Assembly (NCBI RefSeq): GCF_019175385.1
Contig: NC_083342.1
Location: forward strand, 115,444,376-115,508,375
DNA: 64,000 bases
Direction of reading: 5' to 3'
From: Lycium barbarum
Lineage: Eukaryota; Streptophyta; Magnoliopsida; Solanales; Solanaceae
The notes beneath the pieces were generated by a model. That model did not search any database. It was not told where the DNA came from and saw only the letters and a list, made by a program, of their open reading frames with translations. Positions 29,774 through 64,000 of this stretch are shown in pieces. A program made the position numbers and the translations under genes. The first letter of the stretch is position 1. Each line of letters begins with the position of its first letter.

Positions 29774-29780
29774 CTCATCA

Positions 29781-36514: not shown

Positions 36515-36523
36515 ATATACACA

Positions 36524-39180: not shown

Positions 39181-39897
39181 GGAGTCGGGAAACCGTGGTC
39201 TCCAGCTCATCTAGCCTCGAAGAAAACTGGGCTTTATCCCGGCTAAGGCCGATCTTTTCAGCCTCAAGGCTCCGGTTATAGTCGGTCATAGCGACCAGCT
39301 TACCCTTCAAACGACGATTTTCGTTCTTAGCCGCATCGAGCTCGGGACGAAGGTTGGCCAGCACGGCCACCCGATTCAACTCTTCCTCCTTCTCCTGAAA
39401 GAGATGCCAGTATTTCTCCGTTTCTCGACCTTGGGCATCCAGTTGGCCTCGGAGATCATCTATCTCATGTTGGGCACGGATGAAAGCTTCATTAACCAAC
39501 ACCACACTCTACAAGTAAAACAAGTCAGAAGACTTAGGCGAAATGAGGATAAAAATCCATTGATAAACTGTACAAGGATGACAGAAGAGCTTACCCAGTT
39601 GCTTGCATGCATACCCTCGTTAATGAGGCACTGCCAAGTGAGCCCGGTCATTTTGCGCTTGTTCGAGTCAGAAATAAGGGGCCGCAAATAGCTCGCTACG
39701 CCCACCGGGAACGACAGAAAGCTGCAGTCCTCGGGTACGGTGACTACGGCCGATCTGGTTCTCCTTGGCTCCACGCTCGGGGCCGGGAAGATGTTTACCA
39801 AGCTCTCCCTGGCCCCTGACTCGGAGATCCGGTTGGCCGGCCTCGTGGCCCGAGGAATAGGGAGATGACCAAAGCCCGCTGCTTCTCCGGTAGCGGC

Positions 39898-39917
39898 GGG
39901 GGGGGGGGGGGGGGGGG
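39898..39917. repeat. G20 homopolymer
   Basis: Twenty consecutive G on the plus strand (poly-Pro on the minus strand). The antisense coding frame to its left (39460-39900) differs from that to its right, so the tract length has changed. Confidence 0.9.
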
Positions 39918-41530: not shown

Positions 41531-42035
41531 CGTGATGACGAGAAAGAAGGAAGGCCCAAGAGAGGGATTTAAGAAAGATGAAGAGACTAGTAATAACTAA
41601 AAGCAAGGGGAGCAGAATTGGTTCTTTTTGCACGCTGTGCGAATCAATGAAACAGCAGCAGATCAAATGGGAAGATAATTGTGTGTGGTGAAGATGAAAA
41701 GGTGCAGAAAATGGAGTGGAGTTGAAGGAGAGCAAATGCGTGAAAATGGAAAAATGAGGAGGTGAAGGGTCTTTTATAGGCAAAGAAGATGAGCGGTTAC
41801 CGAGGACGGCCAATCAAGGGGCGCCACGTGTCCCGTCATTAATTCGAAGTGACTTGAAACGATGTGAAAAAGGCGGTTGACAGAGACGAGCCATCCGGAG
41901 CGGGACACGTGGCCGATAAAAGGGGACGTATTACACAACCGTTCCCGCCAAAATAAGAAGACAATGACGAGCTGCCGGAACCACCGGTTTTCGGGAATTA
42001 TCCACTTCCCGTTTCTCCGATAGATCGCAGATCCG
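41531..42035 (-). promoter_or_regulatory. upstream region of the antisense ORF
   Basis: About 500 bp between the antisense start codon and the 3' LTR polypurine region. A TATA-like TATAAAAG (minus strand, about 41771-41778, from CTTTTATAGG on the plus strand) is a plausible antisense core promoter. Confidence 0.4.
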
Positions 42036-42052
42036 GGAAGTGTGGGGCTATC
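42035..42052 (+). promoter_or_regulatory. polypurine-tract region before the 3' LTR
   Basis: The sequence GGGAAGTGTGGGGCTATC directly precedes the LTR start. It is purine-rich, as expected for plus-strand priming, though not a pure tract. Confidence 0.6.
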
Positions 42053-42777
42053 TGTATACGGTAAAAGCCGGATGTGAGCCAAACCGGTGGAACGGGAACC
42101 GGAGGAAGGAACAATGATGCGCCCGAGGCTACTCGCCCTTGACCGAAATAGTGCCCGGGCCGAAGCCGAGCAAGGGCACCGACTGATCTGCCCTCTGCAT
42201 CGTTGAAACGGCCAAGCCCGAGGACTCGGGCTTTCATGGTCGTTGGTCCGCATGACCGTTAGCCCGAATGACCGTTTGTCCGTGTGGCCGTTGCAGACGG
42301 GTCACGTGCCAGTAACGTCCAGTCATGGTCAACTACCTACCATGCGTGTGTCAGACGGCGCCGTCAGTCTAATCCTACCAAATCCGTGCAGAGCAGTCCT
42401 TTTTATTATTATTTTATTAACTCATATTGTATGAGAACCATGGGGGTGCCACTATAAATAGGGCATGTCCCCTTCCTTTAAAGGGGTTGGTCACTTTTAT
42501 TTTCCAAGAACACTTGTAGTAGAAGAATTCATATATACAAATCTCTCTCATTGTTTGATTCGGCTAAGGCCATCAGTTATTATTATTATTGCATTCCATC
42601 CATCTAATATCATACTTTGTTCACTAACACTCGTATCACTAGCAAACTATCGTCACTAGCCGTTTCACTAAGGAGCTCTCAAATACTTGTTTTTCCCCCT
42701 TAACACACATCAAGAACAAAGCACATATCCTATACCCATTCACAAATTTAATTGATTATCCGAATCCGGGGTAAACA
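42053..42777 (+). repeat. 3' LTR of the Tat-like element
   Basis: 725 bp, co-linear with 31256-31983. Most of the differences counted are C/T or G/A transitions, several at CpG, plus loss of one ATT unit (about 42587). The following AATAC completes the target duplication. Confidence 0.95.
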
Positions 42778-42782: not shown

Positions 42783-43807
42783 TAGTAAACTACCGGAAAG
42801 AGGAAGATTTCATTAAACCATAAGAATGATCATAACTATTGGAATTCAAACTAACCTATGTACTACTGTCTGATTTGTCATTTAATTATCATGCTTAGAA
42901 CATTAAAAAAAAAAAAACTCTTAGTCTCATGTATCCACTCAAACACATACTATATGTTTGCTTCACGCAAGCTGCAGCTTCTCTCCTCTTAGTGTTTGCT
43001 TCTCTCTTTTGCCTTGACTTAAAAGTTTTACACCAATATGCATTCCACTACCCAAAAGGCGTCCTTTCCCTCATTCAGAACCTTCTTTCTCTTTAAATGC
43101 ATAAAATATACTCCCAGGAGGGTTAAGTTGCTAACGTCATCCTGTCAACACACGAGATTTTTTATCATACTTGTATGTTGTATCTAATTAATGTATCCGC
43201 CAAGTTCGAGTGTACTTTAAATTAAAGTAGTCTAATTCTCATAGAACACCTTGTTAATCGTACAATTTAACCTTTATGTATTGTCGGTATAAGTCACACA
43301 CTCTATATGTATTGTCAGTATAAGTAATATTTACATCATCAGATTACCTGTTATAATAGGTTACTTGTCTTATTTTCTAGATGACAAAACACTTATTTTA
43401 CGAAATCTAAACACTTATTTTACGAAATCTTACTTGTAGACATTTTTTGGTGATCTGAAAATGTACAGAAATTCTTGTACCAACGATGAGATAACTTATA
43501 CTCTTTTGAAAAATCGTATGGTTGGAAGAAAGATAGCTGTCCATCAAGTGACCCACCACCAAAAGCTTCAACGTTTTCTCATCTAAAAAACTAATTAAAG
43601 CTGAACTGAACTACTTGTAGTAACAAACAGCAACAAGCAGTAGTCCTGCCTACCTACCTTGTATAATTAAATAAATACCTCTATCTCTCTTTCCAAATCT
43701 TTAACTCTCCTTCTCCTTGTTCCTCTTCATCATTCCCCATACCCCACAAAATTAGAACACTCTTCTGCAGAAACTGAAGAACACAATTACTTCGTAGAGA
43801 AATAATT
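42783..43807 (+). promoter_or_regulatory. upstream region of the LBD19/31-like gene
   Basis: This begins right after the retrotransposon's target duplication. A TATA-like TATAATTAAATAAATACC lies at about 43661-43678, roughly 130 bp before the ATG. A 22-bp unit (AAACACTTATTTTACGAAATC) is duplicated in tandem at about 43388-43431. The element is therefore inserted about 1.0 kb upstream of the start codon, inside the likely promoter. Confidence 0.5.
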
Positions 43808-46164
43808 ATGAGCAGTGGTGGTGGGCCTTGTGGTGCATGCAAGTTTCTTAGAAGGAAGTGTGTGAGGGATTGCATATTTGCACCTTATTTTGACTCAGAA
43901 CAAGGCATGTCACACTTTGCTGCTGTGCATAAGGTGTTTGGAGCTAGCAATGCCTCCAAACTATTGCTCACAATTCCACCAAACAAGCGCCTTGAAACTG
44001 TTATTACTCTCTGTTATGAGGCTCTCGCTAGAGTTAGAGACCCTGTCTATGGCTGTGTTGGCCACATCTTTTCCCTTCAGCAACAGGTAATTTTTTTTTC
44101 TGGATTAAGTTATATACACACATTGATCAGTGTAGTTTAATTTATTACTAGCAGTTACGTTAGTTATCGTTTTTATCAGGTTAGTACTAATTACTACATA
44201 TCACATATTTTGTTAAAAACTCGAGACATTTGAAATGGTCATGATGATGTGTGTTGCATGCGGACTTCAAAATTTAAGAAGCATGAAAGTGAATATAGAG
44301 TGTTCCCTGTAGTAAAGTTTGTTAGGATTTTTTCGAGAAGATGCACTCAGAAGGTTGAAAATATGTTCCGTAAATTTTATTAATCATAGGACTTTAAATA
44401 GCTGCGTCAACAAAGTAGTAGACTTGTTCTATAACTAAATTGTTAAGACTCTTACTATTACTAAAAAATGAATACTCTAGTAAATCAAGTGTTATTCTCT
44501 TACAACCAAGTGAGTAATTATTCCAGAAAAAAAAAAGTAACAGTTACAAATGCAACTTCCAACAAATTTTCCATTTGAATAGACCTTCTCTTTTTCATTA
44601 AACTCAAAAGTCTTTTCCTTTGGTCGTCAAAAGATGGTCTTTGACAAGAAACTCATTGATTGTTCAAATATAAAGTTAAGTTTCCAGATCAAATATGGTA
44701 CTAATACTAGTTAATGTTTGTTGGCTCTGTTTGTATGAGCTGATTATCATTAGTACGAAGATCTGCTCTTTAATTTGATGCTAACATTTAACAAAATATA
44801 GCAGCAGATTGAGGGGTTCGCTGAACTTAACATTTCCAATGTTTTCCAATGTATAGTAGTTTTCCCTCAAATTCTACTATATATGTAACAGTCACTGACT
44901 CAAAAATTGATGCAAAACTAAAGAAACAATTTTTTGTGAAAATTGGACTAATGTAATAGTTGATTGATGTGCATTTTTTAGTGTTTTCTTGCTTGCCGGG
45001 ACTAGCAAGTAACCTTAATCAGCTTTAGCAGCTCGAGCAATATACAATAAACCAATAATTTGACTTAGCTTGTTTCTTATTGACTTCTTGTCTTTCATGG
45101 AAGTCTACAAAATATTGTTAAAAGTACTGAGCGCAATAAAAAAAGAATTTTTCCTTATTCAATCGGATTAAAAAGAAACTCTGGGATTACTGAATCAGAG
45201 ACGAGTCTTAATTTGGCATATCAATTCAGATGCTAATAGGTGTATATATCTTATTAACTAAAAAAAAAAAGGTATATACATCTTTTTCTTATTATAGTAT
45301 TACACTAAGATGAAATAATGAAAAGACAACTAATTTTAACCAAAAAAAAAAAAAGACAACTAGTTATGTTAGATATAGCTCAGGATTTTTCTTTGAAGAT
45401 TACAGTGTTCTTTATGTCGAATAAAATAGTACACTGTTTGGAGTGTCCTATAAACGAGAAGGCAAGTAGGATAGCAATATACTACTTGCAACTTGCAAGT
45501 GATCTATCCAGCTTGGGAATATAAAAGAATGTTGACTTCCTAAGAACGAAATTAGACTTTTCTGACAGGTAGCTTCTATGCAATTCCACGAAGTGTCTTC
45601 ATCTTATCATTTAGCACATAATTAAGTCTTTAATATATGGAATATACCCATACTTTACATTGAACTAATTAATAATGTCACCATGCTAGAACAAGTTACG
45701 AAATTTATTTTAAGGTATTATATTTATGAACTAGCTGTATCCTTGTTAAAAAAACATATATTTAGTGGTTATCCATTGATGAACATATAGCGCCTTCTAA
45801 GTAAAAAGGTACAATCACAAGCAATCTTCTTTAAACTCGAATAATTTATTCATATACAAATCATAACTATTGTGAACCATAGGACAATTATCTAATTGTT
45901 TGGTTTAATATGTGCGTGTAGGCTGTGACATTGCAAGCAGAGTTAGCTTACGTTCAAGCCCGTATTTCCACCCTGCAGCACAGCCTCCCAATGGCACCAA
46001 CACCATCGCTGGCAGAAGTAGGAGCATGTTGTTCTAACATATCATCATCGGTGTGTACTATGGATCCTTTGATCGATGTAACAGGCTTATGTGATGTGTT
46101 GGATCAACAACTGGATAATTGTGACCTCCATACAGTTGCTGTAGACTTTGTCTCCAGGCATTAA
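43808..46164 (+). CDS. LBD19/LBD31-like: LOB-domain transcription factor, LBD19/LBD31 type
   Basis: Exons 43808-44086 and 45922-46164 join in phase 0 over an 1835-bp GT-AG intron and give 173 residues. The LOB domain starts almost at once: [13 protein letters not shown] (C block, residue 6 on), [17 protein letters not shown] (GAS block), [16 protein letters not shown], then [18 protein letters not shown], the leucine-zipper-like coil split by the intron as in most class I LBDs. The short C-terminus ends [10 protein letters not shown], like the FVSR ending of LBD19 as I remember it. It is predicted nuclear and DNA-binding. It is the paralogue of the 1554-5516 gene and divergent to it. Subfamily assignment rests on length and motif memory. 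Confidence 0.92.
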
Positions 46165-46347
46165 TCTAGACTTAGGTTCTGGTCTTCTATCGCCATGCAT
46201 CACAATGATACTTGACTTAGTTTTAACTCTATGAAGATTGTCATCTAACTCTCTTTTGTTTTATATGTAATTTAGTCCTTTCCTTCTCTGTTTTACTCTA
46301 ATCAATGCTAATTGTGCTTGTTTGATTCTTGTTAGGCGTTAAATTAA

Positions 46348-47716
46348 GGCAAAATATATCAAATGACACTTAAACTATACCCAAAAAATCGAGTTCACAC
46401 TCAAACTATGCAGACGACCTATTACACACCTGAACATTTAAAAAGTGAATTTAATACCACCCTAGAAGCTGATGTGGCACAAAAAAATTTATAATTAAAA
46501 AATAGGCGCATTTTGTTGATTTTTTTTTTTGGCTAAATATACACCCCCCCCCCCCCCCCCCTCTTCTTCATCATCCTCTTCTCCTCCACGCCCCCCCCCC
46601 CACACACACCCCCCACTGCAGCCCTCCACCTCCACGTCAACCCACTCCCTCTTCGCCTCCACCTTCACGCCACCCTCTTCATTTCAAATTCACAAACAAA
46701 AAATCTGAAATATAACCCACTTCTTCTTCTCCAAAAACCACCCAATTATTTCTCCAACCAACCAAAGCAACACCCACCACCACCCCACCGGAAAAACTAA
46801 ATTGAGGAACAAATAATTCAATTCCTCCTCAAATTCGTCCCATTTACACTCAAATTTGTCCAAGTTTAAGAAACAATACATAACTACAATGAAGAAATTG
46901 CACGAATTGCCCTTCAAATGGACTTTTAACAACAATGAAGAAATTACACGAACTGCCCTTCAAATGGACTTCCTCCATTTTCCTCTTCTTCTTCTTCCAT
47001 AGCCACCGTAGCACCACCATTTCTTTGCTAAACCTACTGTTGAACCACCACTAAACCACCATCATTCCCCTATTTTTCCACCGGTGATCTTAAGATTTGG
47101 ATTGTCCAATTTTTCCAACCCATTTCCCTATTCTTCTTTTATTTTTTGCAGATAGTTTTGTTTGTGGATTTGATATTAGTTTTGTCTTCTTCCAAACTTT
47201 TTCCTTTGTAATCATTTTTTTAATTGAATTTGAAAGATTATCATTGATTTGGGTTCGGTAGCTAGTAAAATTGATGGTGGTGATGTAATTAATAGTTGGG
47301 TTTGGGGTTGATGATAATGAGGTGGTGGATATGGTTGGTGGCGGGTTGGCGGCAATGGTGGTGGTTTAATAGTGGGATGGTTTAGTGATGAAGAAGAGAT
47401 AATTATTAGAGCATTTTAATAGTTAATTAGGGATTAATTATTAATTAGTGTAAATTTAATTAACAAAAGAAAAATCAAATGGATAAAGAAAAGGAAAAGA
47501 ATATAATTTTTTTTAGAAGATTTCCACGTGGCGCTGGCGTGGCGCTAACGCGGCGGCAAGTGTGGAACACCTCCCCTTATGCAATTGGTTATGTGCACAT
47601 CAGGTAGTATTAAATTCACTTTTTAGATGTTCAGGTGTGTAATAGGTCGTCTGCATAGTTTGAGTGTGAACTCGGCTTTTTAGGTATAATTTAAGTGTCA
47701 TTTGATGTATTTTGCT
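46348..47716. mobile_element. foldback (long-TIR) element with 10-bp target duplication, Mutator-like
   Basis: The arms (about 46348-46476 and 47592-47716) share GCAAAATAYATCAAATGACA, then ACTTAAACTATACC, GTTCACACTCAAACTATGCA, GACGACCTATTACACACCTG and AAAAAGTGAATTTAATACTA in inverted orientation. The flanking repeat GTTAAATTAA is identical at 46338-46347 and 47717-47726. A 9-11 bp duplication with long arms fits TIR-MULE/foldback elements. The inner part is C- and T-rich, with a C18 run at 46544-46561, and has no gene. It lies 184 bp after the LBD19-like stop codon, probably in or next to its 3' UTR. Confidence 0.85.
46544..46561. repeat. C18 homopolymer and C-rich stretch
   Basis: Eighteen C in a row, followed shortly by a second C-rich stretch with ACACAC near 46590-46615. 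It is in the centre of the foldback element. Confidence 0.85.
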
Positions 47717-47726
47717 GTTAAATTAA

Positions 47727-49117
47727 TGTAGATCGATGTCAACTTGTTTTTTCCTTAGCTTTTAGTCTCTTGCTTAAGAAATTGGGCTTTGCTTTATAAG
47801 CAAAAACTTGCTAACAACTTTCTTCTTGCTCACTGCTCTGACATAGCTAACTTCTATAACCCAACAGATGGTCTCTTTTGGTTATCTATTGGGCTGTTTG
47901 ACCCTATGGCTCCTTTTGGGCTTTTTTTTGCGCGGAGTGCCCTTCTTTTGGGCTGGTCTTTATATTTTGCTCCTCATTTATGCCTTCTTTAATTTTTGCC
48001 CCTGCCGTCTGTTTAATGAAAGTTTTTTGACGAAATTACCCTTACCCTATTAAAACCCTTTCTATTTCGTCATTTGCCCTTTTCTTTTCTTTTTTTGCTT
48101 CTTCGTTCCTCCTCTGTTTTGTGTCTGTCTTATCTGTTCTAAAATTTAGGTACGAATTTGGATCTTTTGCTCGTTTCAATATTTGTTTTTATGTTAAATT
48201 ATTGTTTGTTGAATTGACATCTTTGTCTTCGTCGTTTTTTATATTTAATTGATCCTTTTTTATTTAAAATTATAGTGTTTTGTTAAAGTGTCTGTATGAT
48301 TTTTTGAACTTTAGTTTCGTTCCCCATGTATATATTTTGGTTTTTTGAATGTCGTAATATGTTTTAGTTGATTTTGATATGCGTTTTGGTTTTCTCTTTG
48401 TTGAATCTTTGAAGTTTTGCCCGTGAACAGCTGTTTTATGTTGTTGCTGTTGTTTTTGTTTAATAATCTGGTTTTTGTGAAGAATGTGTTTGTGCGAGGC
48501 GGCATATGCCTGTTCCGGCAGAAATTTCGTTTTTTGAAACTGAATTTATGCCTATTCCGGCATAATTTTGTGATTTAAGTTAGTTTGTATGTGTTTTGAT
48601 TTTTTGGTGTTTTTTTTTTGTTAATAATGTTGGTTTTTATGAAAGTTTATATGTTTTCCTGATTATAAACTTTAGTTTAAGATTTTTGGTGTTTTTTTTG
48701 TTTAGTAACCTGTGTTTTCATAAAGACTGTGTTTGTCTGAGGCAACATATGCCGGGTCCGACAGAGTTCTTGGTTTTTGAAACTGAAGTTATGCCGGTTC
48801 CGACATAAAGTTATGCATGTTCCGGCATAACTTCATGAATTAAGTTAATTTATGTGTGTCTTGGTTTTTTGGTGTTGTCTTGTTAATAATTTTGGTTTTT
48901 ATGCAATCTTATGTGTTTTTGGTGTTGTTTTGTTAATAATGTTGGCTTTTTATGCAATCTTATGTGTTTTGGTTCTTTCTTCTATTATGCAGGTATTTGT
49001 GTACCAGTCTAGGGGCTGATTTTTTATTATGGTATATGTTAATTATTTTCATTCTCATTTTTGGTTTATTCTTATGTAAATTCTTGGTTTCTGTTGACAT
49101 TAATTTTTCTTTTATAG
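47727..49117 (+). other. presumed 5' region of the first DUF1985-type gene
   Basis: No protein similarity found. It is T-rich and intron-like, with CTTCTTCGTTCCTCC-type pyrimidine leader sequence near 48100 and five copies of the TGCC-N6-GGCA motif (48507-48827). An untranslated or short coding first exon may lie here. I could not identify the terminal inverted repeat that would mark the left end of the Mutator-like element. Confidence 0.4.
48507..48827 (+). repeat. TGCC-N6-GGCA motif cluster 1
   Basis: Copies start at 48507, 48549, 48750, 48792 and 48814 (one with TGCA, two with GACA). Distances within the two clear pairs are 42 and 42 bp. They lie upstream of the first coding exon of the DUF1985-type gene. 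Confidence 0.85.
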
Positions 49118-51686
49118 GAGGAACATCCCCTGGTTAAGTTTGAACACTGGGTTGAAGGAAGTGGCATGTGGAGTGGTGATTTTCATTTTCGGAGTTTGAT
49201 TTTGTCCTTTTTGAGTGTCTCTCAATTGGACTTGTTGAAAAAGGGTGTGTTTGGACAGTTTATGGATTTGGTTGATGTCCACTTGAGTGATAGTATTTTC
49301 CATTGCTTGATCTTATCGCAACTTTCACCTAGTAATGATAGTGCGTTAAAGTTTAAGATATTTGATCGCGTGTGTGTATTTGATTCCGAGTCTTTCCGTC
49401 TTATTACTGGTTTGGATTCTTGTGTTGGCGATTTTAGTGTTGTGTCTAGCAGACCAAATAGATTGTTGAGACTTTATTTTCCAAATCAGGATAGAATAAG
49501 ATTATGTGATCTCAAGAGTTTCTTACAGATCAAGTCAAGTAATCGTACTGGTGGTTTTTGGGAAAGATCTAGTGATCCTGTTAGACTTGCTGAGGTCTAT
49601 ATAATGGAGAGGGTTGTGTTGGGTCGTAACGAGAAATGTGTTGTTAAAGGTCATCTAATGAAGATAATTGATGATGATAGTCTTCAAGTGTCTTATCCTT
49701 GCGGTTCTCTTAGTTTTAATTGGTTGGTACGGTCGATTCGTGGTTGTGTGAAGACTTTCAAGAGCATGCCATCTACACGTTATATGATTAGTGGTTTCCC
49801 TTACGCTTTAAAAGTGTGGTTGTTGGAGGTTTTCCCTATCTTTCGAGGGTTTTCAAGTTTTCATGGTCTGAAGTCTCCTCGTATGTTGTCTTGGGGTCCT
49901 TCAAAGCAAGTTGATTATAAATTTATTACTGATAATTTCTTCCATGCTGAAAAAGTATGTGTTTCCCTTTTGTTGATGCTTCTTTTTCTTGGTTCTTTTT
50001 CCCTCTTGTTATTTTTTGTGTTTTTGTCTAATTGATGTGTTTATATTGTGTTATAGAGATTCAAGAAATTTATTGTCCATGCTGTTGTTGTTGGTACGGA
50101 ACAAGAGATGCTGAATTATCCAGTTGCACTTAAATTTTCTGATGATTCAGGCCCTTGTTCTTCCCGTGCGGTTTTGCAATCTCAAGTTACTTCTCAGATA
50201 GTTGATGTAAGTTGTACTTTGCCTTTTGTGTTTTTGGTTGTTTAACTGAATTCTGAGTTAGAGACCTTGTGGTAGAGTATTTTAGTAGGAGACATTTTTG
50301 TAGTCTTTTCTGTTTTGGTTATGGAAATTAAAGTTTATGCCCCTTGAGGCATACTTTTTGGTTTTGCAAACGTAGAATCTGCCCCTTCCGGCATACATTT
50401 CTCCTTTCATATTTCAGTTCTGCCCCTATCGGCATACTGTTCTCATTTTGAGACTAATTTTAGTAGGTAACACATTTTGCAGTCTTCTCTGTTTTGGTTT
50501 TGGAAATGAAAGTTTATGCCCCTTGAGGCATATTTTTTGGTTTTGCAAACTTAAAATCTGCCCCTTCCGGCATACATTTCTCCTTTCATATTTGAATTCT
50601 GCCCCTACCGGCAAACTGTTTTCATTTTCAGACTTCAGTTCTGCCGGGTCCGGCATACTTGTTCAACATTAATTTAATGACATCAAAAGTAATGTGTTGT
50701 TTTATTGATCTGTTATACAGGGTGTTTTGTCTAGTGTGAAGAAGCAACTTGATGATGAACGATCTACAATTGTCAATCAAGTAAAGGTATGGCTTTTTAT
50801 TTTTTTGTTTTTGAGTTTGTTAATATGATATGTATACTTTGCATGCTGCATTCGTTGTTTTTGTTTATTCTCATTTTCTTTTCTTCTTTGTTTAAATTAT
50901 TTTTTTCGTTGTTTTGTAGTCTTTGGATAGTTGTTTCGAAGAATTGGATAAAAAGTTTGTTGGTGCGATTAATGTTGTGGATAGCTTAGTTCGTGTACAT
51001 GATGAAACAAAGTCATGTGTAGCAGCTTCTGAAAGTGCTAAAAGAACTTGTTTAGAAAGTAGACTTGACAGTTTGGAAAGTAAATTTGATTATGTGATGC
51101 ATTGTGTTGAAAGTTTAGTTTAACTGCATAGCGAAAACAAATCTTGTAAAGCTTGTGCATCTGGTAAAAGACAACCTGATTTGGGTTATTCAGTGAATGA
51201 TGAGGTGAAGTTAGATGCACATCTTGGAAAAGATTTGCAGGAATGTATGGAGAATATGCTTTGTAAAGCAAGGTCTACAAAAAATGAGACGTCTCTCATG
51301 CTCGATATGCTCTGTGATGCTGTTGTTTCTTCATCAAGTCAACTGTCTGATAAAACTCAAACTCTTTCTCAGTTTGAAAAGGAATTTGTGAAAGAAAATG
51401 AAGACCGCGCAAAAAAAAAGAAGCACTTAAAGAAATTGCTGCAATTAATAATGCTTTTCAATGCGGAGATTATGTGTTTTCTTCTAATGAAGCATCACAA
51501 AATGTAAATGAGGCAGCAGCTGCTGTTAAAGATAGTAGAAAACGTCTGAGATGCGAAGATGGAAACAAAGAAGATGATGGTTATCCTAATTGGTATTTGC
51601 TTACACCAAGCAGTACTCCAGTTGAGAAACGGTTGAGTTTTGCTGTTGAAGATATATACTGTACTGCAGAAGAGTTAGGAAAGTGA
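49118..51686 (+). pseudogene. DUF1985-type gene A of a ULP-bearing Mutator-like element, lacking the peptidase
   Basis: Exons 49118-49954, 50057-50206, 50721-50786 and 50920-51686 all join in phase 0 with GT-AG ends. The first ATG seen is 49166. Frame is already open from 49118, so an upstream exon is possible. The N-terminal 280 residues (GVFGQFMDL ... CVFDSESFRLITGL ... LAEVYIMERVVLG ... YPCGSLSFNWLVRSIRG) correspond block for block to gene B and to the DUF1985 domain of transposon-borne ULP-like genes. The rest is helical and charged, ending YPNWYLLTPSSTPVEKR. There is no Ulp1 peptidase. A TAA at 51121 interrupts the frame, and an A9 run at 51411-51419 requires a one-base shift. A decayed transposon cargo gene is the best call. 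Confidence 0.75.
50338..50655 (+). repeat. TGCC-N6-GGCA motif cluster 2 (intron of gene A)
   Basis: Seven copies start at 50338, 50380, 50421, 50517, 50559, 50600 and 50642. Spacings are 42, 41, 96, 42, 41 and 42. The first three and the next three form a duplicated block of about 179 bp. The cluster fills most of the 514-bp intron between exons ending at 50206 and starting at 50721. Confidence 0.9.
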
Positions 51687-52872
51687 ATTGATTTTTTTGT
51701 TGTTATTTACGGAAAGTGTTATGTTATTGTGTTTCCCCCTTTTTCGAATGATGTATATGTAAATTGGTCTTTCATTTATGTACATATAATGAAGTTTCAC
51801 TTTTTCAAACTGTGCTCTATTGTAGTCTGCCTTAACCGGCATACTTTTGCCATTTTTGTGAATAGATGTTCTGCCCCTTCCGGTATACTTCTAAGATGGA
51901 AGTAACTGTTTTTCCTAAAAATAAAAAAATAATTAAAAAGTGACTCTTGTTCCAAAAGATCTCGAATAAGTGCGACAGTTACTTCTAATTAATGTATTAA
52001 TTGTTTTGTTTTTAAAAAAAATAAAAATTGAAAGAAAAACTGAAAAATTCTTTGTATTTTTGTCAATTTGCGACAGTTACTCCAATTTAAATTTGAGTAA
52101 CTGTTTTTTATTTAAAAAAAAAAAACTGCAAAACTTATTGTATCCTCATCCAATTGAAATCCAAAGAGCTTAATATGCAAAAGTTAAGCCAAACAATCTT
52201 GCCGCCTCCGGCATAAGTTTGCCCGTTGGGAACAGAAGTTCTGCCCCTTCCGGCATACTTCTAAATTCGTAGTAACAGTTTTTTTTCGCTAGAAATAAAA
52301 AAAGATAATGAAAAAGTGACTCTTATTCCCAATATCTCTAATAGGTATTGCTACATTTACTTCCAATTGAAAATGTATTAATTCTTTTTTTTTTTAAAAG
52401 AAAAAAGAAAAAACTGAAAAACTCTTTGTATTTTTGTCAATAATTGCAACAGTTACTTCAATTCAAATTTCACTAACTTTTTTGGTTTTTCTTTGTTCAA
52501 TATATATTTTCCCGCTCTTCCTATGATTTACTTTTTATTTTCGTTTGTTCACTTTAAAGCTGAAGAAGGCAGTTGCTTTGTCACGTTTCCTATATCATCT
52601 TTATCAGTTTTTTTGTTGATTTCTCTTAGTGGGGTTTCAATTTCATCTGTAAGTTATTAGTTACTATTTTATTACTTGTTGATAAGTTATTTCCTTAAAT
52701 TGTTTGTGTCTGTATTTTATTTGAATAGGGTTTTCTGTTTTTTTTTTTCTTTTACATTTTTCGTAATGCATTGTGGTAATGTATTTTTGTTGGTAATGTT
52801 TTTTATGTGTTTTTTTTTTCCTTTTTTTTCCTAATTGAATTTTATGTTTTGCTCATGTCAGTGTGCTAAATC
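51687..52872. other. spacer between the tandem DUF1985-type genes
   Basis: No protein similarity. Two blocks resemble each other: AAAAATAAAAAAATAATTAA followed by AAGTGACTCTTGTTCC near 51916, and AAATAAAAAAAGATAATGAA followed by AAGTGACTCTTATTCC near 52293. The spacer therefore contains a roughly 370-bp tandem duplication, each copy starting with a motif pair. The gene B promoter must lie at its right end. Confidence 0.6.
51828..52255 (+). repeat. TGCC-N6-GGCA motif cluster 3 (between genes A and B)
   Basis: Copies at 51828 and 51872 (44 bp apart, the second with GGTA) and at 52200 and 52242 (42 bp apart). Each pair heads one half of the tandem duplication in this spacer. Confidence 0.85.
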
Positions 52873-54923
52873 ATGAGTCGTCAATTTGGACAAGTTGCTG
52901 ACTATTATATTCCTCTGGAAGAGTGGACAGACACACGCATCAGTGCTGTATGGCGAGGGGATGAAAAGTTTGTTAAATTTGTTGAGAAATTTCTTACAAA
53001 AGAACAGTTGGTAATTTTGAAGAATCGTTCTTTTGGGAAATTTATGGAATTACATAATATAAAAATGTCGGGTATCTTGGTGAATTTTATGTTGTTGTCG
53101 GATGTTCAGTGTTCTGAAACAAATGAAATGCATTTTAATATACAAGATAAACTTGTGACATTTACAGACCAATCATTTAAGAGAGTCACTGGGTTATCAA
53201 TTACTGAACCTCCTAGATCTTTCTATGCTAAATATAACAAAACCAATGGCAATCGTCTTTTGAGAAGATATTATGGTGTTGAAGATGGTAAAAGGAATTT
53301 GGAAATAAGGGATTTGAAGAATGTGATGAGTGCTGAAAATGTAGATTTTGAAGATGACCTTGATGCGGTGATGCTAGCAGAGGTATACATTCTTGGTCGT
53401 GTTTTATTGGGCGATAGAATTGATAAGAAGGTATTGTGGCAGCATATTGTATACATAGAGGACAGTGAATTGTTTGAGCAGTTTAATTGGGGGTCTTTGT
53501 GTTTTGTTGAACTCCTGAGGTGTTTCAAATCAATATATAAGCAAGGGATAAACAGACATACCATTGATTATGGTGTTGTTGGTTTTGTTTATGGCTTTAG
53601 CGTTTGGGTTTGGTCTAGGTTCAATGACTATCGCAGACAATATGTTGAAATTATTGGCGATTATCGTGAACCTCTGATGTTGTCGTATGTCAGTAATAAA
53701 TCTCCACATTTCAATGATGTCAAGAAATTGCTTGTATCCGAAGAGTACACGAGAGGAAAGGTAATGGTGTTTATATTTACTTTTCGTGTCAACTTTTAAT
53801 GTGGTTTTCTTTTTTTGTTTTGATGTAATTATTATTTATTGTTGTATGGATTTTATTTCAATAGCGAGGCAAAGGGGTGGTTGATGAATCTCCGGACAAT
53901 TCAAGTGGTGATGGAAGTGAATCTGAAGATGCCAATATTGCTGGCAAATCCACGGAAAGCTCTTCTCTAGAGCGTCGCATTGAGGTATTTCTCATCGTTC
54001 CTGTCTGTTTTTCCTCTAAAAGTTTTTTTTTCTCTTGATTTTAACACTTTGTTGTATTTTTTTATTTTCACAGTTCCTGGAAAATTTTTGTGATGTTAAA
54101 TTGGATAGGATTTTGAATAATCAACAGCAGGAGAAGGTCCGGATGGATCAGCTGATTTCTGCTCTGCAAAAAGCATGATTAAATTTTGAATCCCAAACTG
54201 CTCCTGATGCTGAAAATGTTCGTCGACATGTTGATTCTCCTTGTCATGTTGAAAAGGGTATACGCAAGAGTACGAGATCTATTCGTAAAAGTGTTGCTGC
54301 TAAAAGGAAAACTAAACAAGCCAGGTCTCGTAAAAATGTTGAGCAATCTTCCATTGGCCAACGAAGAAGATCGGTGCAGTCTCATGTTGGTGAAGATATT
54401 GCTGATATTGAACAGGTATTTTGGGATGCTGAAACTGCCACCGGAGACGAGGGGGCAACTCGTTTGGTGTTGATTGTCTAATGTTGAGGCTGAAAGTAAT
54501 CAAGAAATTCAGATGGAAGATATGCAAGCCGTTTCTAGTGAAAGAACCTTTGATGACACAGAGTTGGGAGGTAAAATCCGAATTTACAAGAGAAGAAAAT
54601 TACACATGACAGTACAAGATGTAGATGCTTCTCCTAATCCATGGCTTCCGGATGGTCCTCAATCTACAAATGTGGCAGCTGATAGGGACAATGCATTTGA
54701 ACATATTTTTGGAGAAGGCCAAGCAAATGTGACATGTCCTATGGAGACAGATGTTGAACAAGTTCAATATCTAAATGCAACTGAAAACGTTGAGGCTGAA
54801 TTGCCTTCGGTAATTTTACATTTATACTTTGTTGTTTTCTAAACCTAAGTTGCCTGGCACACTTTTCTGGCAGTTAACACTTTGTGTGCTCTTTTTTTGT
54901 TTTGCTTATGCAAATGATAGTTT

Positions 54924-55300
54924 TGCCCCTCCTGGCATAATCCCCCCTTTTATTTCAAACTCATGTTCTGCCTACTCCAGCATACTACCTTTTTTGCAAA
55001 GTTACATTTCTACCTACACCGGCATAATTTTACTTTTTGAAACTTAGCTCTTTCCCCTTCCGGCATACTTTCACATTTTATTTTGCAAACTCATGTTCTG
55101 CCTCCTCCGGCATACTCATCTCTTTTAGAAAGTTATTTTCTGCCCACTCCGGCATAGCTTTACTTTTTTAAACTTAAATCTTGCCCCTTCCGACATACTT
55201 TTCCCTTTTTCAAGCATAAGGTTTGCCCCTTCCGGCATATTTTTCAAAACTTGTTGATAAATTTTCCTTTTTGTGAACCTAACTTTTGCCTGTTTTGACA
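54924..55300 (+). repeat. TGCC-N6-GGCA motif cluster 4 (intron of gene B)
   Basis: Nine recognisable copies at 54924, 54969, 55011, 55052, 55099, 55141, 55182, 55224 and 55287. Spacings are 45, 42, 41, 47, 42, 41, 42 and 63. They form a quasi-tandem array that fills the 594-bp intron 54810-55403. Between motifs lie T-rich 26-base spacers. Confidence 0.9.
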
Positions 55301-56187
55301 TAATTTTCAATCTTTTACCACTTGCAGAATTTGTTAATTTTTTATTTTAATATTTTTGCTTCGATGATGGATGTTGTGTTTCTTAATTTGTTACTTTATG
55401 TAGGTTGTTGTGGAGGAACAATTGGGCGGTGAACAGCTTCGTGACGCCAATCATGAAGAATCCAACATATCTCCACCAAAAGGAGATATGCCTCAAAATC
55501 TTGAGCAAACAACAGTTGAAAATCTTGAGCCTATAAGATGTGAAACACCTGAAGGTCAAGTTTCTAAAGAGGGTGATGAACGCGCTGTTATTCCTCATAT
55601 TGGTGCTATGCCCGAGCCTATTAAAAGGGTTGAGCCATTGAGGACCGAACCTGCCAATGCAGACGCGGTTCAAGTCACCACTCCAAGGGAGTCTGCTGTT
55701 GTTGATGGAAAGGGTGATAACTCTCAAGGAATGGAGGACAATTTTCAATATGTGTCCTTTGAAGATATTACAAATGTCGCTTGTTCCGCTGTCAAAGAGA
55801 GTACTGAAGAAGAACCTATTGTTTAAGTGGCGGAAGTGCTATCTTCCTTGAAGACAAGGCACCAGAGGAAAAGGAAAGCAGTGGGTGATACCCCGGTGCC
55901 CGGATGGATGCTATATTCTGCACGTAGTGATCTTCCTTTTGGGTCACGGAAGGACGAAAGTGACTGGAATGAAGAGTACAGAATGATGTGCCCATTCCAT
56001 TACATCAAAAGCAAAGTTGCTATGAACTTTTGGAATTTTTTTATCAATCCTCGAAATCTTCCACCAAGTAACTTTCGACCTACTAGGTAAGTTGTTAGTT
56101 ATGTGTGTGCTTTCTTGCATTTTTCTTCCTTCTTTTGGGTTTATGTTTTTTTATTTTTCTGTCTTTTAAGTACAATCTCTGTATTTT

Positions 56188-56243
56188 TGCCCCTTCCGGC
56201 ATACTTTTCCCTTTTTCAAGCATAAGGTTTGCCCCTTCCGGCA
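56188..56243 (+). repeat. TGCC-N6-GGCA motif cluster 5 (next intron of gene B)
   Basis: Copies at 56188 and 56230, 42 bp apart, in the 56087-56334 intron. About 110 bp around them (CCCTTTTTCAAGCATAAGG, then TTCAAAACTTGTT) is nearly identical to 55182-55290 in the previous intron. Confidence 0.9.
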
Positions 56244-56810
56244 TATTGTTCAAAACTTGTTCATAAATTTCCCTTTCTATGAACCAAACTTCTGCCTGTA
56301 TTTTTGTAATTTTTGTTCCCTTTTCTTTAATCAGGGCTGAAGACGAGGTAATGTATGCTGCAAAGTTGAACCAACTTAGTGGAGTTTATCAGTTGGGTGA
56401 TTTTAAGCCAAAATATAGGATGTTTTTTTTGGAGCTGTACCATGATGTCTATGCGCTTAATGATGAGGTTCGTGATTGTCTTTTACTTTTTATTTTCTTA
56501 TTTTTCTATTAGTTATTGCTTCTTGCTTCCTTTCTTTTTTGTTTATCGCTGAATCACTATTTTTTTCCCTTAACACAGCATATTGATGTGATGCTATATT
56601 ATTTAAGGAAGAAAATGATGTATCATCCTCCAGCTGCCAATGCTGTTAAGTACACAACCGTAGATATGATGTTTGATCAGCTTGTGCAATTTGACATCAA
56701 TAGATACTACGAAGACCCGGTTAATTACCACTGGTTTGCTGGCGGCAGTGATGATGCATTTTTGCTGAATAATATTGTGTATGGGCGAAGAGGAAAATGT
56801 GGTATATCAT

Positions 56811-57003
56811 TGTTGACACCCAATTTTGTCCCACCTTTCCTCCAAAATATCTATTTACGCTTCTAATATTTTTTGGCAATTTGAGAAATATATATTCATA
56901 TTTTTACTATAATTATTAGCTTTTATTAATACCAGCGTTTCATTATTCTATTGCAGTCACTAGCTGTTATTATTTTGTTACTTATCCTTATCATTATTAT
57001 TAC

Positions 57004-57046
<43 letters not shown>

Positions 57047-59570
57047 TTGTTATTATTATTACCAGTATTATCATAATTTGCATTATAATCGTTTCAGCAT
57101 TTTTACCGCATTACGCACACGCATCGCATTTATTTTCGCACAAATAAATAATAGCATTTATTTATTGTTGACTTTCAAAAAATAATTATTGCACGGCTAT
57201 TACAACGTCATATAGTTTTATTTTTACCCGAGCACTAATAAATATATACTTTTATATTAATTTCGACACCCGTTACTATATAATTAATTAAAATAGGTTT
57301 TTGTTTAAATTTAGAAGCCCAAATTATTTCTTTCATCCAGTCCATATTTTAATTCATCAGCCCAATCCGTATGAGACCAATTCATTACCCACCCACATTT
57401 TAATACCTAAATCGACCAGCCCATAAACATTTTCGGACCAATCCAGCCCACCATTCATTTAAACAAAACCACTCAGCCCACCTCTTCAACCGACCCAACC
57501 CACAAACCACATTCGACCCGACCCGCCCTCGTCATTTAACAAAAGAACCATTAGGGTTCTTTCTTCTTCATCCGCCCCCCCTTCTCCTCGCTCCTCTCTC
57601 CTCTTCCTCTCTCTCTTCGTCGATAAACATAGCAAAACGACAGAGGGCCCTTCGTTGGACACAGGCCATGCATGGCCGTTTAAGGAAAGAGAAATTAATA
57701 GTCGGTCCCTTTTCAACCGTTGACGAGTTTGAGTGTTTGTTTTCTTCCCCCCCGCTTTAAATCTGAAACCATTTTTAATGGGTTTTGTCGATTTGTGAAG
57801 GAGAAGTCGTTTTCTTATCAGTCCCTTTTTGATTTTTCGGGTACAAAAGTTTGAATAGTTTTTGTCTACTTCTTGATTTTTCTGATTCAAGGTCTGAAAT
57901 CTGAACGTTGAGCCTAAAAAATCCCGCCTAATTTTCAATTTTCCAACCCCAGCAAACCATAGCTAAACCCTATAAATAATCTCTAGTTGAATCGTTTAGG
58001 GGGGTTCTTTTGATCACCGAAATTCCCTAAAAAATATTAAAGTTTTCAGCCGCAAAATTCCCCCTACGCAAAGCATAAGTTTAGCCGCCTAGGAATACTC
58101 TGAAATATCAGTTCCTTTAGCCGTTATAATCTTGTTTTAATATTGAGTCAAAATATCAAGTCATTTTTGGTTTTGTTTGTCTTGGTATTGCTTCGAATCT
58201 GAGCATCGCAAGCTCGGATTTGGTAGTCTTCGAGGTAGATTGGAAACCCCCACACCTCAGATTCGCTGCACTCGAAGAAGCCCAACGAAATCTTCTCCGT
58301 GTCCAGCCCATACCCGCAGCGGAATAAAATATATTCTGGGCTAAGCCCATACAGCAGCAACAGGCCGCGGCCCTTCAATGAAATTACTGGGCCGAAGCCC
58401 AATAGTAGCATGATCATGGCAGTCTTGAAAATAGGCTAAGCCCATTTAACTTACTTGCTCCTCTATTTTATCTTTTTGCATTTAACTGGTATGACTAATA
58501 CTTTGTTTTGCTAATTTAGATGAACCTTAGCGACATTAGTGGGTTTTAGCTTTAATAACAGGTAGTTAATATAAGGAAAATTAACGATTAATTCCATAAG
58601 TTTCATCCTCTTCATGTCCTTTACTTATAGTATTTGTCTTCATTAGAATAGTTGATTTTCAAAATAACATGGCTACATACTTTGAGTTAAGGGAATCATG
58701 TTTTATTTTACTATCTTAAAAATGTTCAACGCGTCACTAATATGTAAATATTAATCCTAGTATCATTTTATAAACATTTTAGATTAATCCGATTTCACAT
58801 ATTTTAGCCGAATATAGTTAAATAAAAGTTAATAAAAGAGAAAGAAACTCACGCCCTTTTTATCATATAAAAATAAGTTTAGGCTTTTCTACATCGCAAT
58901 ATTCATATAATATAATTTTTTATCTAAAGTTCACGTTTGTTAGATCTTCTCTTAAAAAGCTATTATTCATAGGCAAATTATTCTATTTTCTACGAATCCT
59001 ATTTTGAATAGCATTACTATATTCTCTAAGGTCTTAGCAATATCTTTAAGTTCTATTTAGAATTTAAAATCTTCTCTTATGCAAATTATTATATTTTTCT
59101 ACAAGTCTTATTTTTAAATAGCATTACTATTTTATTCAAAGTTTTAACAGCATTTATAAATTTCATTTTTAAAAGCATTTTCTTTATGCAAATTAATATA
59201 TTTTTCTACAAGTTAGTTTAAATGGCATTATTATATTTCCTTTAAAACCTTAGTAATATGTACAAGCTATTTTATTAAATTAAGAATTATATTTCACTTT
59301 AATTAATTAACCTAAGTTTGGCCGGATAACCGTAGTTAACGGATCCTAGAGGATGCTTAACCCCTTCCCTTTAGGATAATTAGAACCCTTACCTAGAATC
59401 ACAAATTAAGTAGATCATTAACGGAGGTTTAGCTATTTTTACCTTAGTTAATAATTAGGTGCCCTAATTCACCTTAAAATCAATTAGGTGGCGACTCCTT
59501 AAAACAAAGCAATTTAGGAATCTCCAATATGTTGTACTCTACTTTAACCCGTTTTAAATGGGGTATAACA
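56811..59570 (+). mobile_element. solo LTR inserted in the Ulp1 domain exon of gene B
   Basis: 2760 bp, starting TGTTGACACCCAATTTTGTC and ending GGGGTATAACA. Flanking 5-mers are ATCAT (56806-56810) and GTCAT (59571-59575), one mismatch. Coding similarity resumes in the correct phase exactly after the second 5-mer, which fixes the boundaries independently. Inside are an ATT/TTA trinucleotide tract (56991-57047), a TATA-like CCTATAAATAATC near 57970, and AGGTGGCGACTCC near the right end, a motif I recall from gypsy LTR ends. No internal domain or second LTR is present. Confidence 0.85.
56991..57047. repeat. (ATT)n microsatellite
   Basis: A nearly pure ATT/TTA tract in the 5' part of the solo LTR. 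Confidence 0.9.
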
Positions 59571-60520
59571 GTCATGGGAGAATGTCGACAGGGTATTAAT
59601 TCCTATTCGCCCAGGATATGATGATCCTAAAGCAATTTCTCACTATGTACTTATTGTTTTCATGATTGATGAGCGTAAACTGGTAGTTTATAACTCACTC
59701 AATCATAATGATGATCATTTGGTTCGCATTGTCGAGGCCTACTGTGGTATGATCCCTAAGTTGTTGATGGTCAATGATTTTCAATTATTCAGGCCATCAT
59801 ACAATAACTTCAGTAATCTGACATATACCTGGGCTGCATGTCCAAAGCAAGGATCGTACATTTCATTCTTATATTTTTTTTAGCTTTTTCCGTTGTTTTT
59901 TGTGGATTTTTATTTTTTTTATTGTTTTTGCTTTTCTGTTGTTCTAAAACATCTCTCTTTTATGTCTTTCAGAGATTATAATTGTAGTCTTTTTTTGATC
60001 AAGTTTGCTGATATGATGATTAGCGGTCAAAATCCTGCTGATTGGGATGGTTCTGGTTTGATGCACTACATGAAAGAGTGGTCAATCAATTTGGTTTGTC
60101 ATGGGAAAGATAAGCTGAAAAAGGGTTATGACACGCCACCAGATACAGCTGGAAGTGATTATCATGAGCATAATGATATGGAGTGTGAGTATGACATGAA
60201 AAAGAGAGCAACATTTGTGAAGAAAGCAAAAAAATAGTTTGTTTTAGTTGAGCAAGATCTGTGAAGAAAGGAAAGAAATAGTTTGTCTTAGTTATTTTTG
60301 CACTATGTAATATTTTTTTTCGTGCGCCCTTGTGTTTTTTGTAAATGTTATAAGATTGTACAGTTTGTTTGTGTTATAAATTTCAACTTTAAGCCCCTTT
60401 GTAATTTGATGGTGTTCATTTTTAAGCTCAACTTCTTTGTTCATAAAAGCTGTTATTTTGTTGAAAATCCAAGTTATACCCTTTCCATCACAACTTCATG
60501 GTTGTTATGTAATAGAAGTT

Positions 60521-60785
60521 TGCCGGGGTCGGCATAGTTTCTCATTATGTAAATAGAAGTTCTGCCCATTCCGGCAGAATTTAAGTTCAGAAAACTTGTC
60601 ATAACCAGCAACAAAGGCAAACCCTTTGAAGTTATTGACCAGTCAAAATGCATTTATTGGGGATTATTTGTGACGGAATGCTGTTATTTTGTTGAAAACC
60701 AAATTTATGGTGGTTATTTAATAGGAGTTTGCCGGGGTCGACATAGTTTCTCATTTTATGAACAGAAGTTCCACCCTTTCCGGCA
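60521..60785 (+). repeat. TGCC-N6-GGCA motif cluster 6
   Basis: Pairs at 60521/60563 and 60730/60772, both exactly 42 bp apart, one pair in each half of a local duplication. Confidence 0.85.
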
Positions 60786-61101
60786 GAAATTAAGTTCAGA
60801 GAACTTGCTACAACCAGCAACAAAGACAAAACCTTTTAACTTTTTTGAACAGTCAGAACGCATTTTATTGGGATTAGTTGAGACACCATAATTGTTGTTT
60901 TAGTATGAATGAATTTTTATTTTTAGTTTATGTTTTTGTTATTTTTTTTTTTGTTTTTTTTTCTTCTCCAATATTTGTATGAATGAAATTTTGCTATGAA
61001 TGAATGAAATATTTTATTTAGTGTTAATTGTATTGTGCTGAATGTTTTATCCAATTTTCCAGCAATTTAAAATATTTTATAAACAACAAAGCACATAAGT
61101 A

Positions 61102-61299
61102 TGCCCCTAACGGCATACTTATTTATTTTGTAAGCGAAAGACCTGCCGGTTCCGGCATAAATGTAAAACATGAAAATAACAGAGAGAAACAATATTGTTA
61201 TGTCCCAAGGCATACATCTATTAAACTTACCAGGATGTAATCTTTGAGATACCAATTTTGTTTTCCCGGCAAAAACTGTTATACCTGCCACAGGAGGCA
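61102..61299 (+). repeat. TGCC-N6-GGCA motif cluster 7
   Basis: Pair at 61102/61144 (42 bp) and a further, more diverged copy at 61286, close to the 3' end of the transposase gene. Confidence 0.8.
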
Positions 61300-62160
61300 T
61301 AAATTATAAAACTGGATAATTAAAGTTGATGATTTTTTTTCCTTTTCCTCAATGTTTTATGATAGAGAATTGTAGATTTCATGTAGGGACATTTATCTCT
61401 TGCTATTATATAGTTTTTTATTATCAGCAACAAGAAGATAACAACTTAGTAAAAGAAAATAATAAAAGAAAGAATGGACAGAAGAATAAATGTGTGATAA
61501 GATGCTTGAAGTCTCAGTCTTAGTAATACCAAAATTTTGTCATTTCTTTCAGGTAGAGTGTGCATTATGCGTCAAAAATCACAAGATAAATTCATATAAA
61601 CCATGTATAAGAGTGTGATGTTAGGATGACAATTTCCTCTTCCTGTATCTTCTTGAACATGGATTGAGAGCTGGACTATGGTTATAGGTTGCCCTAGTGT
61701 GTCCAAAGAACTTGCATCTACCACATCTGTATATGTACTTTGTCGATTCTCTTCTTGGGCAATATCTTTTTGTTTGTTTTCTTCCAGGTCTTATTTTAAC
61801 ATCAGGCGGCGTTATTTTAATATCCATAATGTTTTGTGGAATAATCCATGAGTCTTGATTTCCAACTGATAGTATTTCACCTTTGTATGTCTCTTGGCAG
61901 GCTTGTTTCTTGAACCAGTCCGCACAGTATGTAGATTTTGGCAAGCTTCTTTTGTCTATAACTGCCATGGCATGTGTGCACGGTAACTCGTCAGTTTGGA
62001 ACTCCAAACACTCACAAGTCATATTCTTCAGGTCTACATTGTATTGATATCCTTCATCTTTCACAACAAATTTGACGGGAGTTATGTTTTCTACCTGTAG
62101 AAATTGACAATATAAATGAGTGATATTTTTTGTGGCAATTTTCAGATTATGTGAGAGTTA

Positions 62161-62432
62161 TGCCTTTTCCGGCATACTTCCTGTACAGTGAAAATAAGAG
62201 TCTGCCCCTTCCGACAGAACTAAGTATAAAATAGGGTCATAGTTGTTCCTTTGTCCAGCATAACTTTTGTGTTTGGTTAATTTTAAACTATACGTTGCTC
62301 ATAAAACTAAGATTGAAGTGTGTGTTGGTAAAATCTATTTACTTTCATTGTGAGCATAAAAACAGTGTCATAGTTATGCCCTTACCGGCATAATTCCATG
62401 CTAGTTAAAATAAGAGTTTGCCCCTTCCGGCA
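62161..62432 (+). repeat. TGCC-N6-GGCA motif cluster 8 (intron of the transposase)
   Basis: Pairs at 62161/62203 and 62377/62419, both 42 bp apart, in the 465-bp intron 62095-62559. The two pairs are halves of a 216-bp duplication. The motif keeps the plus-strand orientation seen in the other clusters although this gene runs on the minus strand. Confidence 0.9.
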
Positions 62433-63577
62433 GAACGAAGTATAAAAATAGGGTCATAGTTCTTCCTTTATCTAGCATAACTTTTGTGTTTGGTTAAAAT
62501 TAAACTATGCATTGCTCACCAAACTAATATTGAAGTGTGTGTTGGTAAAATGTACTTACTTTCATTGTGAAGCCTCTACTTATCTTTTCAAGCAGAATAT
62601 TTTCAGCCCAACATGTCAGGTCATGGGACGGTCCTGTTGCATCCAATTTTCTCTGGTAAAACCAATTTTGCAGCTTGTTTTGGATGTAATCAATATATGC
62701 CATTATTGGCAACTCCCTTGCTTTCCTCAATACAAAATTCATTGTCTCGACATTGTTTGTTGTGAGCATGTTGTAACGCCTGTTGGTGTGGAATGAACGT
62801 GCCCATCTTTCCGGTGGTTCTTCTTCTATGTATTCTGCAGCTTTTGGGTCGATTTGTTGTATCTGTGACATATAGGTACGAAACTCTGCCTGTTTGTTGG
62901 TACTTGCTGCATTGTAGAACAGTGATAGGATCGCTTCGGATGGGAAATATTTCTGCAAGTTCTTCTCTATGTGGTAGATGCATATGCCATGCTGGGTATC
63001 TGGATACAGTTCTTTGATTGCAGTTGCAATTAATGCGTGGTGATCGGAAAGAATTGATAGGTCTTTGCGCGTGCCAAACACCTTTTTCACGTGTCTGAAG
63101 AACCACATGTAGGATTCATTATTCTCAGAGTCTGCAATACCAAATGCGAGAGGAAATATGTTGTTGTTTCCATCTTTTGCTACTTCTATCATGAGCACAC
63201 CGCGGTATTTTGATTTCAAGAAGGTTGCATCCACCATCATTACTGGTCTGCAGTGTTTCCAACCCTCAATTGATGCTCCATAAGCGAAAAAAGCATACTT
63301 AAACTTATTGTCAGCGGTCCATTTGATGTTAGCAACTGTTCCAGGATTTCTTAATTTCATCATGTGAAGATATTGCGGTAGAAGTGTGTAGTTATTTTCT
63401 GGGCTTCCTCTTATGACATTATAAGCGTGTTGGAGGGAACACCATGCTTTGTGGTAACCAATGTGCAAGCCATATCTGCTTCTCATTTCTTCAATGACAA
63501 ATTTGGGTGTTATCTCTTGTAGTGTATGGCATACTAGGTCTGTAATGTATTCTGCTATGACTTTTGAAGTTGCATTC

Positions 63578-63643
63578 CTCATGTCAGAGGTTATGAAATT
63601 TATTGAACAACTATGTCTCATGTCAGAGGTTATGAAAAGTAGT
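63578..63643. repeat. templated 28-bp insertion in the transposase gene
   Basis: The 21-mer CTCATGTCAGAGGTTATGAAA at 63578-63598 recurs at 63617-63637, inside the 28-bp segment 63616-63643 that interrupts the reading frame. The remaining bases (AGTAGT) extend a local palindrome, AGTAGTTAAC...GTTAACTACT. Confidence 0.8.
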
Positions 63644-64000
63644 TAACTTTTCAAAGTTAACTACTTTGAAAAGTTCTGATCCTCTGAACCTTGAACTGTG
63701 GAAACGCCAAATGCAGGTTGGGTCAACACATCTGATGTAATACCGTTGCGTGCATGACTTTTCTACCTTGTACTGTCGATGACGAGTAATTGCAATGTTA
63801 TTCATGCATTTTTTCACGGTATCTTTGTCTTTGAATAAAATGCCAACTTCTATTTGATCAATCGATGCACTAGGTGTCAAAATTTGTGTATCATTTTGTA
63901 TCCTCTTCCTCTTTAGTGTCTTTCTTTTGTTGCATGGCTGTGTTTGTGTCTCTTCAACTGTCATGCTCGGAGTAAGTGATACAACATTCATTGAAGTTGG

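Follow-up and report, generated by a model that had tools for sequence, protein, structure and literature searches.

Within a 64,000-nucleotide stretch of the Lycium barbarum genome (assembly GCF_019175385.1, contig NC_083342.1, positions 115,444,376 to 115,508,375 of the forward strand; hereafter the window, with positions counted from its first base), a Mutator-like element carries about 38 copies of a partly dyad-symmetric motif, many of them spaced exactly 42 bp apart. The most probable reading of these repeats, in our view, is that they form the target array of a sequence-specific, VANC-type anti-silencing system that the element itself encodes. We favor this reading because the gene set of the element and the layout of its tandem repeats in non-coding DNA resemble those of the Arabidopsis VANDAL systems. 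The motif array is real, and it is probably functional in the element family.

Exact TGCCN6GGCA sequences occur 28 times in the window, compared with 0.44 expected and a maximum of 2 among 100 shuffles, which rules out a chance origin. Twenty-six of the 28 lie within 48507-62432, and the remaining two are at 32793 and 62698. Using a weight matrix refined on the sites themselves, we scanned the plus strand at a cut of 12.3 bits and obtained 37 sites forming eight clusters; a 38th site, at 61286, scores 14.8 bits on the minus strand. On both strands of the window outside 48.4-62.5 kb, there were no matches of at least 12.3 bits. An earlier note on this DNA had counted about 38 copies in eight clusters and had seen no comparable cluster elsewhere in the window, and the scan confirmed both statements. 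At a low threshold the matrix is unselective: shuffling the complete window should yield about 10 matches of at least 8 bits. We excluded these weaker matches: 55989, 58311, 60477 and 61634 on the plus strand (5.6-6.0 bits, with 55989 and 61634 in exons) and 48491, 53372 and 54247 on the minus strand (7.0-8.9 bits). The 16-mer form of the motif was also searched in other collections, where it matched 9 stretches of viral contigs (a single match each) and at least 120 stretches of prokaryote contigs (a single match each among the 80 listed). By rough arithmetic these numbers are near chance for such collections, and they are uninformative about plants.

The 37 sites share the consensus TNTGCC-YNTTCC-GGCATA. 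With position 0 assigned to the first base of TGCC, conservation across the sites is 84-100% for the T at -2, for both arms and for the A at 15. The dyad lies in the arms, which are 84-97% complementary, and resurfaces one pair outward at T -2/A 15 (89%), whereas the intervening pair -1/14 is complementary in just 30% of sites and the inner six bases are asymmetric (11-22%). The description of the motif as dyad-symmetric in the earlier note thus holds for both arms and for the outer T/A pair, but not for the inner six bases or the pair -1/14. Judged by consensus match, 34 of the 38 sites prefer the plus orientation and three prefer the minus (60521, 60730 and 61286, the first two of which fit only slightly better that way), while 51828 is tied. 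The core CpG is retained in 32 of the 37 sites. The observed/expected CpG ratio is 0.80 in the 16-bp motifs, a value biased upward because the sites were chosen through their core, compared with 0.40 in the element's remaining non-coding sequence.

The earlier note had assigned the motifs to a Mutator-like element, and the coding content bears this out. Three open frames on the minus strand (61621-63991) contain pieces of a mudrA transposase with DBD_Tnp_Mut, MULE and SWIM domains. Two decayed genes lie on the plus strand. Gene 1 (49118-51690; exons at approximately 49118-49954, 50057-50206, 50721-50787 and 50920-51690) encodes a VANC-like DUF1985 protein, with a profile match (E 8.5e-08, 32.7 bits) just under the Pfam cut-off of 35.1 and stop codons in the last exon. 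Its translation shares 95% identity over 263 amino acids with Lycium barbarum LOC132638531 (P0004), and the other named relatives come from Lycium ferocissimum, Anisodus tanguticus and Anisodus acutangulus. Gene 2 (52873-60237) combines DUF1985 (E 1.9e-15, 57.5 bits, over the same cut-off) with a C-terminal Ulp1 domain. The latter was recognized as Peptidase_C48 (E 7.4e-05, 23.1 bits against a cut-off of 20.7) when the two last exons were read together, whereas the same two 3' exons searched singly gave no domain match; the Ulp1 exons were assigned to the gene of the DUF1985 exon by the order of open exons. Gene 2 contains in-frame stops, and its Ulp1 part is split by an insert resembling a solo long terminal repeat (LTR) of 2.76 kb (56811-59570, TGTTGACACC...TATAACA), with near-identical 5-bp flanks, ATCAT and GTCAT. 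None of the 37 accepted sites lies inside this insert; a plus-strand match there at 58305 (13.2 bits), outside any cluster, was excluded. The copy of the element in the window is decayed.

On the right the element extends past the window end; on the left it may begin near 47.9 kb, a guess made by eye. VANDAL-type elements have terminal inverted repeats that are absent or degenerate; comparing 47401-48500 with 59501-64000 for such repeats, we found only four short matches of 11-16 bases, the right end lying beyond the window. Near the possible left end, the sequence TTTTTGCCCCTGCCGTCT at 47990-48030 resembles a degenerate motif (47997, 9.2 bits).

All 37 matrix sites fall in introns, flanks or intergenic DNA and none in exons as drawn, although coding DNA makes up 5654 of 11679 bp. 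This placement has a p value of 2e-11 if the sites are independent and of 0.005 if the eight clusters are counted instead. Exon limits were drawn by eye from splice dinucleotides, open frames, translations and homologue checks, and the limits of the mudrA intron were likewise set by eye. Cluster A (48507, 48549, 48750, 48792 and 48814; 48507-48829) precedes the first coding exon of gene 1, and the seven sites of cluster B (50338-50657) are within a gene 1 intron at 50207-50720. Cluster C (51828, 51872, 52200 and 52242; 51828-52257) separates gene 1 from gene 2. Two gene 2 introns, 54810-55403 and 56087-56333, hold the nine sites of cluster D (54924-55302) and the two of cluster E (56188 and 56230; 56188-56245). 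Cluster F (60521, 60563, 60730 and 60772; 60521-60787) follows downstream of gene 2, cluster G (61102 and 61144, together with 61286 in the opposite orientation; 61102-61299) is located between gene 2 and mudrA, and cluster H (62161, 62203, 62377 and 62419; 62161-62434) is within a mudrA intron at approximately 62099-62558. The eight clusters are listed on the plus strand, and the orientation shared by 34 of the 38 sites holds despite mudrA being on the minus strand and genes 1 and 2 on the plus strand. The exon junction across the intron that contains cluster B was also recognized, by eye, in protein P0006 of Lycium ferocissimum, whereas model P0004 of L. barbarum runs past the donor of this intron and stops within 13 codons, before the cluster.

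The possibility, raised in the earlier note, that the motifs are a relic of a 14-residue peptide repeat was rejected because the sites use all three frames, 41-bp steps shift the frame and none of the 37 sites is coding. Searching with the translation at 50376-50669, the open frame that contains the most sites (six), gave three candidates, none at E ≤10.

We then considered the spacing, for which the earlier note had named 15 pairs at exactly 42 bp, all of which are present. The 36 adjacent intervals comprise 15 of 42 bp, four of 41 bp and one each of 22, 44, 45, 47 and 63 bp, the others exceeding 70 bp; 21 of the 24 intervals of at most 70 bp deviate from a multiple of 10.5 by no more than 1 bp. 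The note had further suggested that the spacing is kept while the spacer drifts. The 42-bp step does recur, but its constancy matches the neutral expectation: 15 of the 22 intervals of 35-50 bp (68%) are 42 bp long, and neutral descent predicts that about 61% would be unchanged in length, as estimated from the indel-to-substitution ratio in internal duplicates (5 indels, 113 substitutions). Because this constancy is no greater than neutral descent predicts, selection is not needed to explain it; the data neither require nor contradict selection on the 42-bp spacing. The same holds for the idea in the earlier note that 42 bp, as four helical turns, would align the dyad sites along one face of the DNA.

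The spacers retain a record of common descent. Compared in register between clusters, spacers of 42-bp pairs show 50% identity (96 comparisons), whereas shuffled or cyclically shifted spacers show 29.5%, and none of 2000 trials of each kind reached the observed value. This homology indicates that the arrays descend from a common 42-bp unit. The spacers, which had been described as poorly conserved, are indeed less conserved than the cores, whose identity between clusters is 72% at the first site of a pair and 83% at the second, but they are well above the shuffled level. Matrices built from spacers only, with the tested cluster left out, gave 25 matches in the cluster regions: 16 had a core in exact register, 3 more had one within 1-2 bases (two overlapping) and 6 had none, and the scan of cluster C gave no match. 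The same matrices gave 11 matches, none beside a core, on 1-16200, 15801-31200 and 42800-48100, a scan that omitted 31.2-42.8 kb. Since 19 of the 25 matches stand beside cores, core retention is not merely a product of choosing sites by their core. These results support the 42-bp minisatellite with a conserved core that the earlier note proposed; it is an old one that has kept its core better than its spacers. Larger tandem duplications at 50279-50634 (179 bp), 54948-55201 (130 bp) and 62156-62570 (217 bp) carry motifs in both copies, which suggests that the arrays grow by segment duplication.

If the repeats are targets of an anti-silencing system, the sequence TNTGCC-YNTTCC-GGCATA would be bound by a DUF1985 protein, encoded either by gene 1 or, together with Ulp1, by gene 2. 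The protein would probably sit on the dyad as a dimer; the dimer and the choice between the two proteins are guesses. It would load onto the intronic, gene-flanking and intergenic clusters of its own element family, DNA methylation would then be lost at the clusters and across the element, and this loss would allow the transposon genes to be expressed. The sites may have spread as tandem copies of the 42-bp unit and then dispersed, with the core kept and the spacers drifting. Among the hypotheses of the earlier note, we thus favor protein-binding sites, the binder likely being a VANC-like DUF1985 protein rather than the transposase; we infer DNA binding and demethylation by analogy with Arabidopsis. 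A more elaborate scenario, which we consider rather unlikely, is that a DUF1985 dimer, perhaps a heterodimer of both element proteins, reads the dyad on arrays phased at four helical turns, while Ulp1 acts on SUMO-conjugated silencing factors at the array. In the 2022 study by Sasaki, VANC specificity is reported to depend on motif sequence, density and helical periodicity.

In Arabidopsis, VANC (DUF1985) proteins are described as acting on short tandem-repeated motifs in introns, intergenic DNA and terminal non-coding DNA of their own VANDAL elements, which leads to loss of DNA methylation and derepression of those elements, and related VANCs use differing motifs (PMC5735166, PMC10398659). 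VANDAL21 (Hi), with VANC21, resembles the Lycium element in being a Mutator-like element (MULE) that encodes a transposase and a DUF1985 protein and carries short tandem motifs in introns and other non-coding DNA; it differs in that VANC21 binds a 9-bp motif, YAGTATTAY, without TGCC/GGCA arms, and in that binding and methylation loss were shown by chromatin immunoprecipitation sequencing, electrophoretic mobility shift assay and bisulfite sequencing, whereas for the Lycium element both are predictions (PMC5735166). VANC6 acts on AGTTGTCC/AGTTGTAC, which is likewise tandem-repeated in non-coding DNA of VANDAL6 and differs in sequence from the Lycium motif, indicating that motifs diverge between families (PMC5735166). 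In the Lycium element we found three features of the VANDAL type, namely a Mutator-type transposase gene, a DUF1985 protein and a short non-coding tandem motif. It also has the feature of the KIU (Kaonashi) VANDALs, an Ulp1/C48 domain on a DUF1985 protein, as judged from the two last exons of gene 2 read together (23.1 bits). KIU elements are described as eudicot MULEs encoding a VANC with a C-terminal Ulp1/C48 domain, which was transduplicated and is strongly conserved in eudicots, and as having their own recognized motifs; the Solanaceae element differs in pairing its DUF1985-Ulp1 gene with a second DUF1985 gene (PMC13317346). MULE-Solanaceae_1 and MULE-Solanaceae_2 are also Solanaceae MULEs, the former listed with SWIM, an unknown open reading frame and an antisense PMD (PMC6446971).

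Anti-silencing target arrays are already known as a kind, but neither the present motif nor its dyad architecture nor an instance in a Solanaceae element turned up in our searches of the open-licence literature. Four 14-base forms of the motif were absent from the open-licence papers searched (text without figures and supplements), and the 12-mer CCTTCCGGCATA appeared in three of them, in contexts that, judged by titles, are unrelated. A search of the same literature for a VANC-type anti-silencing system in Solanaceae found none, judged by title and the start of the abstract. Motif-directed demethylation by transposon proteins is established in Arabidopsis, and the Solanaceae case, if true, would add a further recognition code, in which comparable genes go with a longer, unrelated motif of dyad form. 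It would also offer a route to asking which part of DUF1985 reads DNA and what the Ulp1 domain contributes. The motif cores can be used directly as probes and may also serve as tags in locus-specific epigenome editing.

Several points weigh against the anti-silencing reading. The co-occurrence of motif and gene set is known from one element copy, exon limits were drawn by eye, and the DUF1985 score of gene 1 is below the Pfam cut-off. The structure model of the DUF1985 protein is uninformative (mean predicted local distance difference test score 38, predicted template modelling score 0.29). Binding, methylation and expression effects are carried over from the Arabidopsis precedent, where VANC motifs are shorter and not of the TGCC/GGCA dyad form. 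Moreover, six recent internal duplicate pairs show no significant excess of core conservation (22/205 core versus 91/655 outside mismatches, Fisher p 0.29). The earlier note had named equal conservation of core and spacer as the mark of a plain young minisatellite; the two do not differ significantly in the recent duplicates, but they differ clearly between clusters.

The main rival is a neutral 42-bp minisatellite, scattered by slippage or unequal exchange without any binding, from which selection purged exon insertions. Spacer homology between clusters, the recent duplicate pairs and a spacing as constant as descent predicts would all suit it, yet we consider it improbable, since between clusters the cores are 72-83% identical against 50% for the spacers and the spacer-only matrices led to a core at 16 of 25 matches exactly and at 3 within 1-2 bases, with 6 lacking one. 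There is a small chance that the motifs are binding sites for the mudrA (MURA-like) transposase spread through the element. The encoded transposase has a DBD_Tnp_Mut domain, and the weak match at 47997 is near the possible left end; however, MURA binds terminal inverted repeats, whereas all 37 sites are internal, many of them intronic and the first at 48507, with the left end of the element placed by eye and the right end outside the window.

There is a slim probability that the sites serve a host factor, for instance in an enhancer or insulator that the element has captured. A dyad at phased intervals would fit a host protein that binds as a dimer, but the 48 kb ahead of the first site contain a single exact match (32793), which is chance level, and we know of no host factor with a TGCC-N6-GGCA site. 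Least probable is an element acting in RNA, in which the TGCC/GGCA arms would pair within or between copies in intronic transcripts, with effects on splicing or on the production of small RNAs. Of six segments, four fold better than their shuffled versions (z -2.4 to -4.6) and two do not (z -0.4 and -0.8); dyad repeats would give such pairing anyway, and the shared DNA orientation of 34 of the 38 sites spans genes of both strands and intergenic DNA.

Elsewhere in the window, some open frames at 32280-42253 look like those of a Gypsy-type retrotransposon, with reverse transcriptase, RNase H and integrase recognized by eye, and a 126-bp unit at 22033-22284 is present in two copies that match at 98%.

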